Shown here in pieces: positions 8,690-18,941 of a stretch of 64,000 nt of DNA. A program made the translations under genes and the position numbers. The notes below the pieces were generated by a model. That model saw only the letters and a list, made by a program, of their open reading frames with translations. It ran no database searches and was not told the DNA's origin. Positions within the stretch are counted from its first letter, which is position 1; each line of letters begins with the position of its first letter. Source of the stretch: Dyadobacter luticola (GTDB lineage Bacteria > Bacteroidota > Bacteroidia > Cytophagales > Spirosomataceae); the NCBI RefSeq assembly GCF_005860805.1, contig NZ_VCEJ01000002.1, positions 1,720,375 to 1,784,374 on the forward strand, written 5' to 3'.

Positions 8690-11600
8690 TCACTGCAAAC
8701 TTGCCTGGTGGATCCTCTGAAATGCGCGTTTCAGCACTTCCTTGATTACTTCGAGCTTCACCGGTTTCACCATATAATCATCCATCCCGACGCCCAGGCA
8801 CCTCGCGCGGTCTTCATTTAAAGCATTGGCAGTGAGCGCCACAATGTAGGGCAGTGTCAAACTGGATTTACGGATGACCGTAGTCGCTTCCAGTCCATCC
8901 ATTTGCGGCATTTGCACGTCCATGAGGATCACATCGAAAACTTCCTGCTTCAAAATTTCCAGCACTTCCAGCCCGTTGCTCACGATGGAAATGTCGAAAC
9001 CCAGCTTCTTCAACACATAATCGATAAACTTCTGGTTGACAAGGTTATCCTCTGCCACCAATATCCGCATCGGGAATTGCAGGGAAAAATCACGTTCCAG
9101 TAATTTCGTATCTGCCTGTGGTTCAGCATGCAATTTGTCAGAACTTGAATTTTTGTCAACAAATTTGGTAACAATGTGAAAATGAAACGCAGACCCTTTC
9201 CCAAATTCGCTTTCGACCCGGATACTGCCGTCCATCAGACGCACCAGTCGCTCGCTGATTACCAGCCCAAGCCCCGTACCGCCGTATTTTCGGTTCACGG
9301 AGGAATCGACCTGTGAAAAAGGCTTGAACAAATTGGCCAGATGCTCCGGCTTGATCCCGATCCCGGTATCCCGCACCGTAAATCCGACGCCGATCTCGCC
9401 GTGCTGCGGCTCGGAATGTTTATACACATGCACCGAAACTTCCCCTTTCGAAGTGAATTTCAATGCGTTATTGATCAGATTTGTTAGAATTTGTTTCAGC
9501 CGCAGGCTATCGCCGATCAGGAAATTCGGCAGGTCCGGCTCGATCCGGTACAGCAGATCAATGTTCTTCCGGGACGCCTGGGACGCAAAAAGATCGGTCA
9601 TTTCTTTCACAGTCCGCCGAAGCTCAAACTCATGTGCTTCCAGATCGATCTTGCCGGATTCGATTTTGGAAAAATCCAGGATATCATTGATCACATTCAC
9701 CAAAGTTTCCCCGCAAGCAGCTATCGTTTTCGTATAATCCTCCTGCTCCTCAGTGAGTTCCGTCTCCGCCAGCAGCGCCGTCATGCCAATTACCCCGTTC
9801 ATCGGCGTCCTGATTTCGTGGCTCATCGTGGCGAGAAAAATACTTTTAGCCTGGTTGGCCCGCTCCGCTTCTTCCCGCGCCGCCTCCGCCTGCTCGTGCT
9901 GCTCGTACAATTCCTCGGTCTGCGTCCGCAGCTCTTCCGACTGCGATTGCAGTTCCTCATTCAAAGCCTGCAAATGATCCGACTGGGCATGCAGCTCTTC
10001 CGCCTGCCGCTGCACCATCATCGTGCGCTCCTCCACCAGCCTTTCGAGCTGTGCTTTTTGCTTGACGATCGCATTCAGGCGGTAATTATAAAAGAGATAC
10101 ACCCCGCAGATAATCAGGCTGACCATCAGCAGCCTGAACCACCAGGTAGCCCAAAAAGGCGGTTTGATGATAATAATAAGCGCCTGCCGACCCATCACCC
10201 AGGTACCTGAAATGTTCTGCGCTTTTACATAAAAAGTATAGGTACCCGGCGGGAGATTGGTGTAAACCGCCGTATTCTTGCCGCCAACATCATTCCAGTC
10301 CTCGTCAAAATTTTCCAGCTTGTAAGCGTAATTCTTGGCAGAAGAAACAAAATCCAGCGCCGCGTAATCCAGTGTAATGAAGGATTGGTTGTAGGATAAG
10401 GTGATTTCTTTTGCCTCCGAAATATCGCCTGCGAAGACCGGCTGGTGACGCTTGTCCGCCGCTGACGTCACATCCTTGTTGAAGATCCGCAGCCTCGTGA
10501 CCACAATCGGATAGTCGCCCTGCTCCTGCCTCAGCTGGCGTGGATTGAATTTGTTAAAACCGTTCACCCCACCGAAATACAAATTCCCCTCATGGTCTTT
10601 GAATGTTGATTTTTGCTTGAATTCGCGCGCCTGCAGGCCGTAAGCTACCGAGTAATTCTGAAACTTTTCCAGGGTTGGGTCAAACATGGAAAGCCCGCCC
10701 GTGGCGCTCACCCACAACATGCCCATATCGTCGATGATCACGGCCTGGGTCACATTATTGATGAGCCCGTCTTTTGTAGTGTAGTCTTTGTACCGGCCGG
10801 TAGAAGGATCGAAACGCACCAGGCCTTTCAATGTTGCCAGCCATAAAATGCCGTTTTTATCCTCCGTCATGCAGTTAATCGAACTGTTTGCCGCACGTTT
10901 TGCATCAGAAATCCTGAACCGGTTGAAAGAATCCGTAGCCGGGTTGTACCGGTTCAGCTGACCTTCATCCGTGCCCATCCAAAGATTTCCTTTGCTATCA
11001 TTCAAAAAACAGTTGACGGTATTTCCCGACAAAGCCTTCTGATCCTTTTCGTTGCCCAGATAATGCCTGAAAACCTTCTTGACAGGATCGTAACAATCGA
11101 CACCCTCACCGAATGTACTCAGCCAGATTTTACCATCCGGTGTGCGGGCAATTGCATAGATGTTATTGGAATACAAAGAATTAGCAACACCCTGCTGATG
11201 TTTGAACATTTCCGAGCGGCCAGTCTCCGGATCAAAAACACTCAACCCGCTGCCCCAGGTACCTACCCACAATTTTTGCTGCGCATCCGCTACGACGGCC
11301 AGCACAAAATCACCGGAAATACCTTTGCCTGGTCCCACGTAATGATGCGCCGTGAACTGCTGCGTTTTGGGATCCAGCATATCCAGGCCGCCGCCATCGG
11401 TCCCGATCCACAAATTGTTTTTCGGGTCTTCGTAAAAGCAGAGGACAAAATTGTTGGACAGGCTGTTTTTCGAAGAATTATGCCGGTAATGCTGGAAACT
11501 GTTGTCGCTTTTGTAAATGCTAACACCTGCTGCATACGCGCCCAGCCAGAAATTTTGCTGCCGGTCCTTATAAATGTAGTCCACCGAATTCCCGCCGATG

Positions 11601-12562
11601 CTGCTGGGGTCAATCGCATCGTGCGCCTGGGTCCGGAATGTTCCGGTTGCCTGGTCAAGAATGTTCAGCCCGCCATTTTCCGTACCGACCCATATCTCGC
11701 CCTGGTTCTCGCTGATGCTCATCACATGATTGTTGGACAAGCTGGCGGCATTTCCCGTCTCATGTCCAAAATGCCGGAAAGAGCCGTCGGAAGGCCGGTA
11801 TACATGCAGGCCGCCACCGTAAGCACCTATCCAGAAATTGCCCTTGCTATCCTGAAAAACCGTACGCACATCTTCACGGTCGAGCGTGGCGGCCAGCTCG
11901 GTGTTATTGTCAAATCTCCGGAAAGCACCCGTCTTGGGATCACGTACCTGCAAGCCCGCCGCAGTACCCGCCCACAGCCGGCCTTCGCGGTCGCAGAACA
12001 CCGTATTGACCCGGTCACCGTGCACGCCGCCGGTTTGTTTAAGGCCAAATTTATAGTGAGTAATTACTACACCTTTTTCAGGATCAAAAAGATCGAGGCC
12101 GTTGGTGGTGGCCAGCCATAATTTTCCATTTTTATCAAAAACTATCCGGCTGATAAAATTGCCCGAAATGCTCTTATTGTTATTCAGGTCAGAAGCATAA
12201 GCCTTGAAATGTTTCCGGCTGCGGTCCAGCACATTGAGCCCGCCGCCTGCCGTCGCGATCCAGAGATTCCCGGATTTGTCTTCGGTAATGTGCGATATGT
12301 GATTGCTGCTCAGGGTGTTTTCGTCCTGCTCATCATTTTTATAAACTTTGAACTCATGACTGTCGTACCGGTTGAGCCCGCCGTTCGTACCGATCCAGAT
12401 AAATCCTTTGCTGTCCTGAAAAATGCAGTTTACATTGTTGTCGATTAATCCGTTCTCCGCGGAAATATGTCTGAAATGGATGGGTTTACTCTGAGAAAAT
12501 GCGGTTGACGCAAAGAGCTGCATCAATAAACAATAAAAAAGACAGCAAATATTCCGCGTCAT
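8690..12562 (-). CDS. Hybrid sensor histidine kinase with periplasmic propeller domains and receiver
   Basis: A 1290-residue one-protein phosphorelay. Order: signal peptide to about residue 23 (TAFSQ); about fourteen two-component-regulator propeller repeats ([16 protein letters not shown] type) to about 700; Y_Y_Y domain about 720-785; one transmembrane helix near 800-820; a coiled coil rich in EELxxQ heptads (about 840-905); HisKA with His915 in [11 protein letters not shown]; HATPase_c with N box [10 protein letters not shown]1 DTGIGI and G2 GGTGLGL; C-terminal receiver with phospho-acceptor D1215 ([11 protein letters not shown]) and the expected KPV Lys. It lacks the AraC DNA-binding domain of the classical Bacteroides hybrid systems, so output must pass through a partner or another receiver. 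Such propellers usually sense glycans or other envelope signals. Ligand unknown. Confidence 0.93.
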
Positions 12563-13966: not shown

Positions 13967-16327
13967 ATGAAGCAATGCATTTGCCGGAAGCCGCTGGTAC
14001 CCAATCAGCGGTGGTTCCTTCTTTTATCTTTCCTGATAATCCGCATCTCCGGGCCGGTTTTGGCACAAAATCAGCCGGTTCCCACCGATTCTAGCAAGCT
14101 CATTCCTGATACCCTATTGTTCCGTCTGGAAAAATACCAGGCTGCGATCACTGAAATGAACGGTGCCAACAAAAAGGGGTATGATGGGGATAAAATACGC
14201 GGTGAACTTGCCGGAATCAAAACCAATGTAACGCAGATCGATTCGGCGATGCAGGTTACCAAAACCATCCCCGACAATAAAAGCCTGCTCAACTACCGTC
14301 TGATCCTCTCCGATGCCCAGCTGAAAACGGCCGAGTGGCGTAAATCGCTCTCGAAATATAACATGCAGCTGCAACGTATGTCCGAGCAGGTGATCCGGTT
14401 CAGCCGTGATTCGCTGCTCATGACTGACGGTACTGATACCACCCAGCGAAAGCTCTACGCCCAACAGATTTCCGACCTGCGAACCCGTCTCCAAAACACC
14501 GGAAAAGTGACGGTAGCCAACCTCGATACAGTCAGTAAGCTGCTTGCTGACGTATCTGCCGTGTATTTTCAAACTATTGACCTTCAATCGATTGTTGATG
14601 ATTATGTAGCCGAATCAGGCAGGAATGTGCTCAGCCGCGAGTACCGGCTGCTATGGAATGCGCCGCGGACAAACAGCTCCGACAACATTGGCGAGCTCGT
14701 CAAAACTTCCTACCTCGGGCAGGACAAAATCTTACGTTATTTTCTCAACTCTACGTGGGACAACCGGATTTTTTTGCTGCTGGTATGCGCCGGTTTTTTC
14801 TGGTGGATTTATATTAATTTCCGCCTCGCTGCCCAGCCAAAAATCGCAGCCGACCTCGGCACCATGCAGTTGAGCTACCTCACCCGCATCCCGATCCTTT
14901 CCACGCTGGTCGTTTTATTCAACCTCACCCCGCTTTTCGAACCCGGCTCACCCTCGATTTACATTGAGGTCAACCAGTTTTTCCTGCTGGTCACACTTAC
15001 TGTTTTTTTATATAAAAGGTTACCCAAGAACCAGTTACAAGTCTGGTTCAGGATTCTGGGTTTATATGTACTGGTGATTTTTACGAATGCATTTGTCAAC
15101 GATACCTTCCTGCTCCGACTCCTGCTGATCCTGCTGAATGCGGTTTCGATCTACTTCGGGATCTGGCTATACCACAAAATGAAAGAGGCGAGTTTTGACA
15201 AAAGATTTATCAAACCTGTCGTCATCATTTATGTTATCCTGAATGTCGGCGCGGTTTTGCTGAATGTGCTGGGGCGGATCAGCCTGGCGAAATCTTTTAA
15301 CATGACGGCCATCAGCGGGCTTGTCCAGATCCTGAGTCTGGCGGTTTTTGTCGAAATTGTTACCGAGGCGCTGGAACTGCATATCAAGGTCAGCTCATGC
15401 TCCGGCGGGATTTTTTCGCGGGTCAATGTGCCGCGCACGCGTGCTAAATTTCGTAAAATGCTGGCGTTCATTTCGGTGCTGCTGTGGATCATTGTGTTTT
15501 CCATCAACCTCAGTATCATCGATTTCATCGTCAATTTCTTTGAGCACCTGCTGATCAAACCACGGACGTTCGGGAACATTACTTTCACGCTTGCCAACAT
15601 TCTGTTTTTCGCGGTGATCATTTATCTTTCCAATTTGCTGCAAAAAAACATCGGCATCGTTTTCGGAGAAACCGACAATACTTTCGGCAGCACCACAAAA
15701 ATTGAAAAGACCTCCAAGCTGGCACTGGTCCGCCTGCTGGTGATCGTAGTTGGCTTCCTCTTTGCCGTCATGGCGTCGGGTGTGCCGCTGGACAAAATCA
15801 CCGTGCTGATCGGCGCGCTGGGCGTCGGTATCGGGCTGGGTTTGCAGAACATTATCAACAATTTCGTATCCGGTATCATCCTGATTTTCGAAAAACCATT
15901 TACGATCGGCGACTACATTGAGCTGGCGGATAAAAAGGGAAAAGTGCTCGATATCGGCATCCGGTCAAGCAAAATGCTTACTTCCCAGGGTTCGCGGGTG
16001 ATCATTCCAAATGGTGATCTGCTCTCCGGGCGGCTCGTGAACTATACCCAGAAAAATACGCAGCTGAAAAGCGAGATCATTTTCAAGGTCAATGTAGAAT
16101 CGGACCTGGACCTTGTAAAAAAACTCGTGAACGAAACCATTGAAAAAGGTGAGGACATTGTCAAAAATGCCCCGGCACAAATTCTTTTCAACAGCATTGG
16201 CGCGGATAATGTAGAACTGAAAATTCTTGTTTGGGTAAAAAGTGTTTATGCCGACGCTACTTTCAAGAGCTACGTTCTCGAAACGCTTTACAGAAAATTC
16301 AAGGAAAATAATATCAAGGTTATGTGA
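13967..16327 (+). CDS. MscS-family mechanosensitive ion channel with periplasmic N-terminal domain
   Basis: A 786-residue inner-membrane protein. The signal peptide ends near VLAQ (about residue 34). A helical periplasmic region of about 230 residues follows, then about ten transmembrane segments (from about 265), and the MscS core: pore helix LIGALGVGIGLGLQNIINNF, then the beta domain VSGIILIFEKPFTIGDYIEL (about 633-652) and NGDLLSGRLVNY. The C-terminal cytosolic domain carries RKFKENNIKV. The size and periplasmic domain resemble the long MscK/YbdG-type channels. It opens on hypo-osmotic shock to release solutes. It is divergent from the Gfo/Idh/MocA gene and convergent with the barrel gene. 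Confidence 0.92.
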   Translation: MKQCICRKPLVPNQRWFLLLSFLIIRISGPVLAQNQPVPTDSSKLIPDTLLFRLEKYQAAITEMNGANKKGYDGDKIRGELAGIKTNVTQIDSAMQVTKTIPDNKSLLNYRLILSDAQLKTAEWRKSLSKYNMQLQRMSEQVIRFSRDSLLMTDGTDTTQRKLYAQQISDLRTRLQNTGKVTVANLDTVSKLLADVSAVYFQTIDLQSIVDDYVAESGRNVLSREYRLLWNAPRTNSSDNIGELVKTSYLGQDKILRYFLNSTWDNRIFLLLVCAGFFWWIYINFRLAAQPKIAADLGTMQLSYLTRIPILSTLVVLFNLTPLFEPGSPSIYIEVNQFFLLVTLTVFLYKRLPKNQLQVWFRILGLYVLVIFTNAFVNDTFLLRLLLILLNAVSIYFGIWLYHKMKEASFDKRFIKPVVIIYVILNVGAVLLNVLGRISLAKSFNMTAISGLVQILSLAVFVEIVTEALELHIKVSSCSGGIFSRVNVPRTRAKFRKMLAFISVLLWIIVFSINLSIIDFIVNFFEHLLIKPRTFGNITFTLANILFFAVIIYLSNLLQKNIGIVFGETDNTFGSTTKIEKTSKLALVRLLVIVVGFLFAVMASGVPLDKITVLIGALGVGIGLGLQNIINNFVSGIILIFEKPFTIGDYIELADKKGKVLDIGIRSSKMLTSQGSRVIIPNGDLLSGRLVNYTQKNTQLKSEIIFKVNVESDLDLVKKLVNETIEKGEDIVKNAPAQILFNSIGADNVELKILVWVKSVYADATFKSYVLETLYRKFKENNIKVM

Positions 16328-16352: not shown

Positions 16353-18941
16353 TTACAGCCTAAGTCCGAGCGAAATGTAAGCAATCGTCCGCTCTTTGGA
16401 AGTTCCGACAATCGCTTCCAAAACCAGCATTTGCGCCGGGATCACATAAATGCCGCCGCCATAGCCATCGTGCCATCTGGAAGAATTTTCTTTCGGGACC
16501 CACACGCGGCCCACATCATTAAACCCAATAATCCCGACCGAGCCCGGCAGCAGATAAGACCGGAAATCAAAGATTTTGAGACGCATTTCCAGGTCATTAT
16601 AAACCATTTTGTCCCCTGTGAACCGGCCGGTATTGAAGCCGCGCAAAGTCGTCTGGCCGCCCAATTTCACCTTTTGAAAAAACTCCGGCGCGCCAAATAC
16701 AGCCCCTACACCCGTCCTGTTGATAATGATCCAGGTCGAATCTCGCCCCGGGTTTAATGTAAATCCGAATTCCGATGATAATTGCAGGTATTTTTTACTG
16801 GTGCCCGAAATGCCGGTGAATGTGCTGGCCGTGTTGTTCCAATAAATGCCGCCCAGCCGCTGAATGCCCTTGTTGCGCGTATCGAGGTTTGCGGAGACCG
16901 TAGCGCCGAAATAACCTTTGTCCGTAAATACCTTTTCCTGAGGGTTTTGAATGTTGTATTCGCTCAAAAATTTCTTCCTGTTGTTTTCAGGATTGCTGCC
17001 ATAAAACTGGCCTGCAAACCCGCCGCTGAAACGCCAGTTTTTTAAGTCGCGGTACACCGAAACATCGCCCGTCACATACTCGTAGCGGTTGCGGTAATAG
17101 TTAATGTCCTTGAAACCCTCATTCACAAAAACCGTCTCATTCCCGATCCCGAAAAAGTTGCTCACATTGTTCGGGCCCCGCGATCGGACATTGATCATCA
17201 GATTGTGATAATCTCCCAAAGCTTTTTTGAAATCACCATTATAGGTAATCAGAAACGATTCCCGCGCAATGGAATATTCCGCCAGAAACTCGTGGCGATA
17301 GGCATAAGGTTCTTTCCGAAAGCCATGTTTTTCATAACTAAACCCGCCCAGCAGCGACACGCCTTTGTCCACGCCATAAGTAGCGCTGGTCACCAATGCA
17401 AAACGATCGTACCTGAAACTTTTAGTGTCATAACTATTTACCAGTGAATCATTTGACAGCCTGAATGTGGCTTGACTGCGCCTTGGAAAATTGTTTTCAC
17501 TTCCTTTTTTATCATAAATAAAAATGCGCTTTTTATCATGTAAATCTGGGTCTATGCTGACACTATCCCGACCTTCTCCCGCAACAATGCGGACCTTGAT
17601 CGGCGATGGCTTTGTGCCGGAAATGTTGAACCGGTCGCTGTTATCAAAGCCGTATACATGCACTTCCTTGGTGATTTGCGGGTAAAAAGTGCGGTTGTAA
17701 GTTGCATGATCAATGCTGCCGTCATTTTTTATTTTATTGACGGCCACTTTCATGCTGCCATCCGCATTGTTTTGAATGTCAAAATTGTCATGCTTGTCGG
17801 TGCCCGGAATGTCCACATCTTTTGCCAAAAAACGGTAATATTCAAGTCCCTGCCAAGTCAAATTTTCCCGTCGTGCTTTAAATTTAGCAATGATATCCTC
17901 TCCCGAAATCTTGAAAATCGTATCGGGCATCAGCCGCATCGCATTCGTAAAAACCTCGTCTGTCAATGTTTTCTGGACGTATTCGATTTGTTCCTTCCAG
18001 TCATTTTCACCTATCTGGCTCAGAAAATATCGGTCAAAAGACTGGTTTTGCAGATTCCAGCTTTTAATGTCCCTGATCTCCTTGTCATAAGCCTGAAACT
18101 TGGAGCGGAGCCAGCCGTGCGAAACGATCCACGGCAGGAGACCATTTGTTTTGTAAAAAACCTGGTCACGGTCGCGCGGTACCGGCAGGTAAGTATCGCC
18201 TTTTTTGCCCTTGATGCGTTCCCAGCGCCACTGGTCTTCGTGCCGGTCCCAATCGCCAAGCAGCATATCCAGCAGCCGCGCGCGCAGCACCAGCTTGTCG
18301 TCGATCCAGTTATCATTATCGTCACGGATTTTTTCCTGGACTTTCTGGGTATTCACCGTTTTATCCGCATCCAGCGGCGCACGTTCCTCGAAGAGGAAAA
18401 CCTGATTGGCAAAGTCGGCACTGTATTTGCCCAAAACAGGATCCGGCGCCAGAAAAACGATCTCCGGATTTGCATGCGGAATGCCCAACGCCTGGGCCAG
18501 CGGCGGTACCACCAGCGCGCTGAAAGGATGCGTAGCCGAAACCTGGTCTTTGAGAATGTCGGCAGCGATGGTATTTTTCAAGTCGCTGGACAACTTGCGA
18601 TCGGGAAATTTTTGCAAAGTCCGCAGCACCCACTGATGACCCGAAGTATCCGCCAGGCGCAGCGAGCGCGTCTGATTTCCGCCGCCAAGCTGCAAAATCT
18701 TCATCCCGCCTTTTTCCTGGAATAAATGTAAAACCCGCATCTTCACCGGCGCACCCCAAACCGCACGGTTATGACTACCCAGAAAAAAACGGTGCAATTT
18801 TCCAACATCATTATACTCCGGCCCAACTGCGACAGATATGCTGTCATTTTCAGTTTGTGCTAATCCAGGGAGTGCTATGAGCCAGGCTGGCAGCAGAAAA
18901 AGAAAAAAACAACAGCTTTTGGCGCGTAAAAAACAAGGCAT
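16353..18941 (-). CDS. Omp85/BamA-type outer-membrane barrel fused to a kinase-like domain
   Basis: An 862-residue protein from the ATG at 18941 (MPCFLRAKSCCFFLFLL, signal to LAQ near 29). Upstream frame to 19088 looks non-coding. Residues about 80-420 carry an unusual domain: LQLGGGNQTRSLRL with VLRTLQ (glycine-rich loop and possible Arg107 in place of the usual Lys), FLFEERAP as a hinge-like strand, LLGDWDRHEDQW (229-238) and PVPRDRDQVF (253-262). The DRH segment resembles the catalytic loop of FAM20/PI4K/HipA-type kinases. The C-terminal about 400 residues form a surface-antigen/Omp85 barrel (TTLRGFNTGRFTG is the lid-like motif; terminal ISLGLRL). No POTRA domains are obvious. Barrel call is firm; kinase activity is inference. 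Confidence 0.8.
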   Translation of the reverse strand: MPCFLRAKSCCFFLFLLPAWLIALPGLAQTENDSISVAVGPEYNDVGKLHRFFLGSHNRAVWGAPVKMRVLHLFQEKGGMKILQLGGGNQTRSLRLADTSGHQWVLRTLQKFPDRKLSSDLKNTIAADILKDQVSATHPFSALVVPPLAQALGIPHANPEIVFLAPDPVLGKYSADFANQVFLFEERAPLDADKTVNTQKVQEKIRDDNDNWIDDKLVLRARLLDMLLGDWDRHEDQWRWERIKGKKGDTYLPVPRDRDQVFYKTNGLLPWIVSHGWLRSKFQAYDKEIRDIKSWNLQNQSFDRYFLSQIGENDWKEQIEYVQKTLTDEVFTNAMRLMPDTIFKISGEDIIAKFKARRENLTWQGLEYYRFLAKDVDIPGTDKHDNFDIQNNADGSMKVAVNKIKNDGSIDHATYNRTFYPQITKEVHVYGFDNSDRFNISGTKPSPIKVRIVAGEGRDSVSIDPDLHDKKRIFIYDKKGSENNFPRRSQATFRLSNDSLVNSYDTKSFRYDRFALVTSATYGVDKGVSLLGGFSYEKHGFRKEPYAYRHEFLAEYSIARESFLITYNGDFKKALGDYHNLMINVRSRGPNNVSNFFGIGNETVFVNEGFKDINYYRNRYEYVTGDVSVYRDLKNWRFSGGFAGQFYGSNPENNRKKFLSEYNIQNPQEKVFTDKGYFGATVSANLDTRNKGIQRLGGIYWNNTASTFTGISGTSKKYLQLSSEFGFTLNPGRDSTWIIINRTGVGAVFGAPEFFQKVKLGGQTTLRGFNTGRFTGDKMVYNDLEMRLKIFDFRSYLLPGSVGIIGFNDVGRVWVPKENSSRWHDGYGGGIYVIPAQMLVLEAIVGTSKERTIAYISLGLRL

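Follow-up and report, generated by a model that had tools for sequence, protein, structure and literature searches.

The gene at positions 16353 to 18941 of a 64,000-nucleotide stretch of Dyadobacter luticola (NCBI RefSeq assembly GCF_005860805.1, contig NZ_VCEJ01000002.1, positions 1,720,375 to 1,784,374; hereafter "the window") encodes a protein, P0001, in which a kinase-like domain precedes an Omp85-type outer-membrane barrel. On the predicted model, the kinase fold and conserved active site of this domain are almost certain. We narrowly favor the further reading of an atypical kinase domain, CotH/FAM20/PI4K-like, that the Omp85 protein anchors at the outer membrane, facing the periplasm. 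A first-pass annotation of the letters had proposed a small atypical kinase on an Omp85 barrel; it located the gene correctly and left out its strand, which is minus. Fold, motif conservation, architecture, and gene association come from computation; from them we infer the periplasmic side, the roles of single residues, catalysis, donor, and substrate.

Predicted fold

An AlphaFold2 (AF2) model of residues 32-392, built without templates from 79 sequences, has a predicted local distance difference test score (pLDDT) of 93.9 and a predicted template-modeling score (pTM) of 0.92. Its elements follow one another in kinase-like order: a sheet with the glycine turn, the strand carrying R107, the helix carrying D132, a pair of strands with E185-E186 at the end of the second, helix 215-228, the DWDRH motif, two further strands, and PRDRDQ. 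The two-lobed fold that characterizes the protein-kinase-like (PKL) superfamily is seen in the model. So is the superfamily's order of active-site residues, with a catalytic-loop Asp after alphaE and a metal Asp after beta7-beta8, in both the model and the alignment to CotH: D232 follows helix 215-228, and D257/D259 follow strands 238-244 and 249-255.

Comparison with known structures leads to kinases, as the annotation had expected. Foldseek against the PDB returned eight matches at E <0.001, all kinases, with CtkA the best (2.1e-5) and Rio2 and PI4KII among the others; further down stood CotH (1.9e-3) and the FAM20 kinase 4kqa (9.3e-3). VIA-align placed CotH 5jd9 (Z 14.6, root-mean-square deviation [rmsd] 4.0, 246 aligned residues) and PI4KII-beta (14.4) level at the top, with CtkA at 13.5 and HipA at about 11, and the 50 entries listed are all kinase-like. 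In a viral structure library, the first match was a phage protein named PI3/4-kinase, followed by kinases of large viruses. The structural check that the annotation had proposed thus turned up no non-kinase fold, and the three families that it had likened to the domain (FAM20, PI4K, and HipA) all occur in the lists, FAM20 lower down.

Active-site conservation

The motifs and residue numbers of the annotation are correct (GGGNQTRSLRL from G86, R107/K111, E185-E186-R187, D232-R233-H234, D257, and D259), and PVPRDRDQVF begins, as it said, about 20 residues past DRH. In an alignment of P0001 with 23 homologues (24 sequences, domain identity to P0001 33-71%), G86-G88, Q90, R107, K111, E185-R187, D225, G229, D230-H234, D236-W238, and D257-Q260 are invariant. 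Seventeen of the 35 most conserved columns, among 359 domain columns scored, lie in 48 motif columns (hypergeometric P 7e-8, for motif ranges picked after the alignment was viewed); judged from the sequences, this conservation is not due to chance.

Phylum-wide, too, few columns are as strongly conserved as those of the catalytic and metal Asp, Arg, and His. D232, D257, and D259 are retained together in 112 sequences of a census of 129 distinct domain sequences, each gene counted once, a non-random sample in which loci picked for low scores inflate degeneracy and near relatives inflate conservation. Singly, the counts are 115 for D232, 119 for D257, 117 for D259, 115 for R107, 117 for K111, 121 for D132, and 125 for D225; of the 17 "non-canonical" rows, three (L068, L072, and L145) are truncated and uninformative. 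All three Asp persist in 68 of 69 members with an N-terminal extension versus 33 of 41 barrel members without one. Conservation of DRH and D257/D259 in orthologues, which the annotation had singled out for checking, is therefore borne out in alignment and census alike.

R107, on strand 103-108, and K111, right after it, are both conserved, and this strand is the place of the VAIK lysine in kinases; D132 would be a candidate alphaC-Glu-like partner for them. D225 and R233 of P0001 have the spacing of D451 and R459, the disease residues of FAM20C (PMC7948968).

Relationship to known kinase families

The domain belongs to the kinase-like superfamily; assignment to a listed family was not reached. 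The annotation had also called for profile comparison. With hhalign, the family profile aligns with CotH at E 8e-4, pairing LLGDWDRH..PVPRDRDQVF with LTGNWD..VIPYDYDNTLG, and with HipA at E 1.2e-3, but the probabilities are just 24% and 20%; CotH and HipA align with each other at E 6e-5 and 65%. Ten controls (reversed profiles, or the phosphoesterase and barrel parts of the family itself) gave E 0.11-0.63 and probabilities of at most 0.5%.

P0001 alone matched no Pfam model at E 10, Fam20C (PF06702), the CotH model (PF08757), and HipA_C (PF07804) included. The kinase-like domains of 79 members matched 32 Pfam families weakly, and HipA_C is not among the best 25 of these 32 that were listed. 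CotH matched two of the 79 (best E 0.013), no better than NAD_synthase (0.0022) or EnY2, and was set aside. Fam20C, scanned against 148 Bacteroidota genomes, gave a sole match at E <=0.001 (4.8e-4), which falls inside a family member (genome G190) under the cut-off of the model (20.4 versus 26.8 bits). Against PDB sequences, the family profile gave four hits, which were not counted: an unrelated EF-hand protein ranked first (E 0.12), and CtkA, with its match at the catalytic loop, came second (E 0.34); P0001 by itself gave two chance hits only (E 0.2 and 0.35).

Each of the nearest families thus offers a likeness and a difference. CotH kinases (PF08757; 5jd9 is from Bacillus cereus) head the VIA-align list and share the aligned motifs, but show 12% identity, without a Pfam match over threshold; to our knowledge, no CotH protein carries a barrel or a phosphoesterase. 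FAM20 shares the D451/R459 spacing, the G190 match, and the 4kqa hit, but the Fam20C score is under its cut-off and D230 replaces an Asn. PI4K type II, CtkA, and HipA resemble the domain by structural score (Z 14.4, 13.5, and about 11), CtkA being also the best Foldseek match, but differ at 10-14% identity, and we know of none of them on an outer-membrane barrel.

Barrel, linker, and phosphoesterase

The barrel half of the annotation's reading is confirmed by a full-length AF2 model (pLDDT 90.4, pTM 0.85; pLDDT <50 at residues 1-31), in which 16 strands at residues 513-858 match TamA 4n74 (Z 26.0, rmsd 2.8, 288 aligned) and also BamA. NCBIfam Omp85_fam matches residues 602-859 below its cut-off (E 3.6e-18, 66.2 versus 200 bits), and PF01103 (Omp85) matches 38 of 55 members at E <=0.1, with a best value of 8.7e-19. 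The C-terminal 16-stranded barrel and RGF loop-6 motif of the Omp85 superfamily are both present; the LRGF of P0001 is what we take to be this motif. Given Omp85 topology, the kinase-like domain very probably lies on the periplasmic face.

The linker between domain and barrel has no helix in the model, and no POTRA domain is recognized there. Its sequence (window 17511-17819) includes a conserved GGxGxD-like stretch, reminiscent of a calcium-binding RTX turn. The 2014 survey of the superfamily (PMC4104836) recognizes Omp85 subfamilies that lack POTRA. PlpD, a patatin-Omp85 protein, likewise has an N-terminal enzyme domain, on the periplasmic side, fused to an Omp85 barrel (PMC11116518), but there the parts are a patatin lipase and POTRA instead of a kinase-like domain and a beta-rich linker.

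Most relatives also carry an N-terminal extension, for the most part a metallophosphoesterase that looks intact. Among 129 rows, the commonest architecture is N-terminal extension, kinase-like domain, and barrel (67), followed by the window-like form (41), barrel-less forms (10), and truncated or unclear ones (11). Extended rows are labeled "MPE+," which denotes an N-terminal part of at least 300 residues, not a Pfam match; L163, an MPE+ row called barrel-less, may be a boundary error. In L002, a 1,261-residue paralogue from the window genome, the extension matches PF00149 above the cut-off (E 1.4e-6), identifying it as a calcineurin-like phosphoesterase. Phosphoesterase metal motifs are found in 58 of 66 extended members by loose patterns and in 43 of 69 by stricter ones; a PDB sequence search with the phosphoesterase part of the paralogue gave no hits. 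A tree of 114 rows, made by a quick method with long branches flagged, has ten changes of the extension label, five losses of a catalytic or metal Asp, and four changes of the barrel. Lipoprotein-like signal peptides were detected by regular expression in five of the ten barrel-less forms.

A PF00149 domain at the N-terminus followed by an Omp85 barrel is also the layout of the "Metallo" subfamily in the survey by Heinz and Lithgow (2014; PMC4104836), an architecture that the extended form shares. Passages of the survey treat PF00149 as a metalloprotease domain; the word "kinase" is absent from the main text. L003, which both Pfam models match (PF00149 below cut-off), and L002 are likened to that subfamily by architecture, the 2014 sequences not having been compared. 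P0001, in which Pfam finds no PF00149, lacks the N-terminal domain that defines the subfamily.

Features of P0001

Table 1. Features of P0001 in the window (window positions; residues of the protein in the second column)
Feature	Residues	Position	Strand	Basis or remark
P0001 open reading frame	1-862	16353..18941	minus	signal peptide, kinase-like domain, beta-rich linker, Omp85 barrel
Putative signal peptide	1-29	18855..18941	minus	basic n-region, hydrophobic core, ALPGLAQ; judged by eye
Kinase-like domain	34-373	17823..18842	minus	AF2 model, structural matches
Glycine-rich turn joining strands 1 and 2 of N-lobe sheet	84-94	18660..18692	minus	alignment, model
R107-K111, on or after strand 103-108	107-111	18609..18623	minus	conservation, model
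D132, in helix 125-134	132	18546..18548	minus	conservation, model
E185-E186-R187, end of strand 180-186, hinge-like position	185-187	18381..18389	minus	alignment, model
Catalytic-loop motif R222..D225..GDWD232RH..DQWRW	222-240	18222..18278	minus	alignment, CotH match
Metal-binding motif PRD257RD259Q	255-260	18162..18179	minus	conservation, alignment to CotH PYDYD
Beta-rich linker, in POTRA place	375-477	17511..17819	minus	model; conserved G454-G455
16-stranded Omp85 barrel	513-862	16356..17405	minus	model, structural matches, PF01103 in members
LRGF motif	766-769	16635..16646	minus	G768 invariant, L766 >=90% in alignment

Gene neighborhood

Gene clustering over 44 loci picked from different families (loci are numbered L, genomes G) revealed several recurring partners. 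The commonest is an HD protein with a C-terminal PycTM two-transmembrane (2TM) domain (PF18967; PADLOC models PycTM and "2TM Effector"), present in 29 of the 44 loci; in 20 it lies no more than two genes from the kinase gene. PycTM is elsewhere an effector of phage defense. Examples, which bear the Pfam label Pycsar effector, lie at L201:4577-5794 and L164:5967-7262, with 27 further loci; because no cyclase occurs among the annotated recurring neighbor clusters of the 44 loci, this label may mislead in these genomes. An SdiA-regulated-like beta-propeller protein recurs in 19 loci (on the same strand in 18), as does a large protein whose match to GAF is weak at best (19), while PPK1, a polyphosphate kinase, is found in nine and SixA in five. 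In L173, L176, L179, and L183, the genes for HD-PycTM, PPK1, the SdiA-like protein, and the kinase form a co-directional run.

Across 61 genomes of the taxonomic family to which the window belongs, the kinase family and HD-PycTM share the same 20, the other 41 having neither; in 18 of these 20 genomes the two are no more than 10 kb apart. Co-occurrence gives P 1.6e-16, and MscS, which also correlates with the family but far less (9/11), gives P 3.5e-4, neither value taking account of kinship; shared ancestry contributes to the HD-PycTM co-occurrence, for which MscS served as the control. Two genera that hold both states agree (G036 versus G052; G004 and G039 versus G055). In the phylum sample, where HD-PycTM was scored at a best E <=1e-75 and distances were measured between match starts, 85 of 87 HD-PycTM genomes carry the kinase family, and in 74 of these the distance is at most 10 kb. 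The kinase family occurs without an HD-PycTM match at this threshold in 59 genomes, some of which have a short PycTM-only match nearby (G086 and G098, match starts 4-5 kb apart); in G212 of the phylum sample and G021 of the window's family, the HD-PycTM match covers the PycTM part only. The kinase family and HD-PycTM quite probably form one system.

Next to P0001 itself, 25 bases away and convergent, lies an MscS-type channel (window 13967-16327; 78% identity in G032). Mechanosensitive channels are among the reported routes of ATP release (PMC7432876), and this one was considered as an ATP source but dropped, being convergent, native to the genus, and rare near the family: among the 44 loci, MscS occurs just in the window and in M. 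roseus (one gene away, L026:8842-11211, 50% identity). Elsewhere in the window, 8693-12562 encodes a 1290-residue protein that by eye resembles a two-component sensor; its cluster appears again in eight of the 44 loci.

Distribution and the window copy

At E 1e-20, members of the family occur in 20 of the 61 genomes from the window's taxonomic family; by profile at E 0.001, they occur in 144 of 395 Bacteroidota genomes sampled, a count that includes a few weak matches. Relatives are also carried by PLSDB plasmids of Persicobacter, Hymenobacter, and Parabacteroides distasonis (CP012852.1, NZ_CP037921.1, NZ_CP049908.1, NZ_OY725747.1, and NZ_CP094537.1), four of these relatives being annotated as hypothetical and one having no annotated gene.

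There are two members in the window genome, P0001 and the phosphoesterase-fused C5 (L002/L201), which comes after GAF-like, HD-PycTM, and SdiA-like genes, all in one direction. Residues 609-637 of L002 (L201:6684-10466), in the kinase-like domain, have a weak PADLOC match to PDC-M03A (E 0.0011). The nearest relatives of P0001 are Mucilaginibacter proteins, with domain identity up to 71%; members from other sampled genomes of the window's own family reach 45%, and in the two other sampled genomes of its genus, the sole member is of the fused type (1,266-residue frame). The window copy was probably acquired horizontally from a Mucilaginibacter-like donor. A scan of named genomes with P0001 alone found four Mucilaginibacter loci, in three of which a second member lies upstream with a GAF-like gene in between. 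In L023, L024, and L026, two kinase-Omp85 genes flank this GAF-like gene of about 780 residues; the copies from L023 and L026 have no Pfam match.

Proposed function and alternatives

The family can be envisioned as a phosphate-handling module anchored in the outer membrane. The kinase-like domain would replace the POTRA domains of an Omp85 protein, the calcineurin-like phosphatase on the same chain in most relatives would reverse or process the phosphorylation, and the kinase-barrel system would cooperate with the HD-2TM membrane protein and often also with the beta-propeller protein; the window copy would be a derived paralogue without phosphatase or neighbors. We lean toward an active phosphotransferase in most of the family. 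ATP has been reported in the periplasm of Escherichia coli (review, PMC7432876), which supports phosphorylation in this compartment.

Several observations weigh against this picture. The periplasm is poor in ATP, and the window copy, lacking phosphatase and recurring neighbors, may differ in role from its family. Of about 126 informative relatives, 14 have lost at least one of the three Asp, from five changes on the tree, which argues that some lineages need no catalysis. Arg107 seems to occupy the usual place of the beta3 lysine, with Lys111 four residues on, and FAM20-type kinases have Asn where this family has D230. The eight Foldseek matches at E <0.001 have modest TM-scores (0.33-0.45 by query length), the hhalign probabilities are low beside that of CotH against HipA, and the profile matches to CotH in Pfam and to CtkA in the PDB are no better than the chance hits alongside.

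The main rival draws on some of the same points. A pseudokinase or ligand sensor would transfer no phosphate; it would keep the fold, bind a nucleotide or phosphorylated ligand, and in this way gate the phosphatase, the barrel, or a partner. This reading would account for the Arg at the beta3 position, for the degenerate relatives (including eight of the 41 barrel members without N-terminal extension), and for the scarcity of periplasmic ATP. We consider it unlikely, given the conservation of the catalytic and metal residues phylum-wide and a predicted Legionella kinase family that has the same Lys-to-Arg change (PMC9758233). A second possibility, rather doubtful, is chemically a sub-case of the kinase reading: an active phosphotransferase acting on a non-protein substrate, such as a lipid, lipopolysaccharide (LPS), or another outer-membrane glycan. 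PI4KII heads the structural list beside CotH, the barrel holds the domain at the membrane, and phosphatidylinositol or other lipids have been suggested as possible substrates of Legionella kinases in the FAM20/CotH group (PMC9758233). Among the annotated recurring neighbor clusters, however, none is for lipid or LPS synthesis; three more of the listed clusters, of 4-5 loci, are without a family. CtkA, moreover, is a protein kinase, and the equally close CotH is described as one.

Other alternatives concern the barrel. It could be a translocator that displays the domain on the surface, there to act on external nucleotides or on other cells; extracellular ATP exists (PMC7432876), and surface display was what was first proposed for PlpD, but the later report of a periplasmic PlpD domain and the likeness of the barrel to TamA/BamA render this improbable. 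Still less probable is a role in assembly like that of BamA/TamA, with the kinase-like domain serving only in place of POTRA to hold client proteins: the barrel is TamA-like and POTRA is not seen in the model, but client binding would not require a conserved catalytic signature, nor the phosphoesterase motifs that most extended relatives also retain.

An outer-membrane kinase of the kind favored here could be part of a wider scheme of envelope-spanning phosphorylation in Bacteroidota, a speculation to which we give little weight. HD-2TM, in the inner membrane, would gate or sense nucleotides and supply the periplasm with phosphate donor, or polyphosphate from the neighboring PPK1 would itself be the donor; kinase and phosphatase, sharing one barrel, would control how far the envelope is phosphorylated, and some lineages would pair an active with a degenerate kinase, much as FAM20C has a partner in FAM20A, its pseudokinase activator (PMC7948968). 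Three genomes of one genus carry adjoining barrel-less copies with DWDRH and DWSRR (L074:1436-4775, L075:2001-5351, and L076:1259-4648), by analogy a possible kinase/pseudokinase pair.

Implications for Omp85 proteins and possible envelope phosphorylation

No description of a kinase-like domain in this Omp85 family, or of its gene association, was found in the open-licence literature searched. The words "kinase" and "metallophosph" are absent from two papers on the Bacteroidota BAM complex and from the TamL paper, and OMP76 of Riemerella, tried as a relative, was rejected as TonB-receptor-like. The parts are of known kinds, and their combination appears to be new.

About a third of sampled Bacteroidota genomes contain this outer-membrane family, whose kinase-like active site is conserved. 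It would give new meaning to an Omp85 subfamily whose published description, in passages of the survey, rests on PF00149. If the kinase reading is true, there would be regulated phosphorylation in a compartment thought to be free of ATP. With a phosphatase fused to it and the HD-2TM gene so closely linked, the family can be tested as a system, and the same phosphatase, together with the recurring partner genes, hints at phosphate handling in the cell envelope by a system not studied so far.

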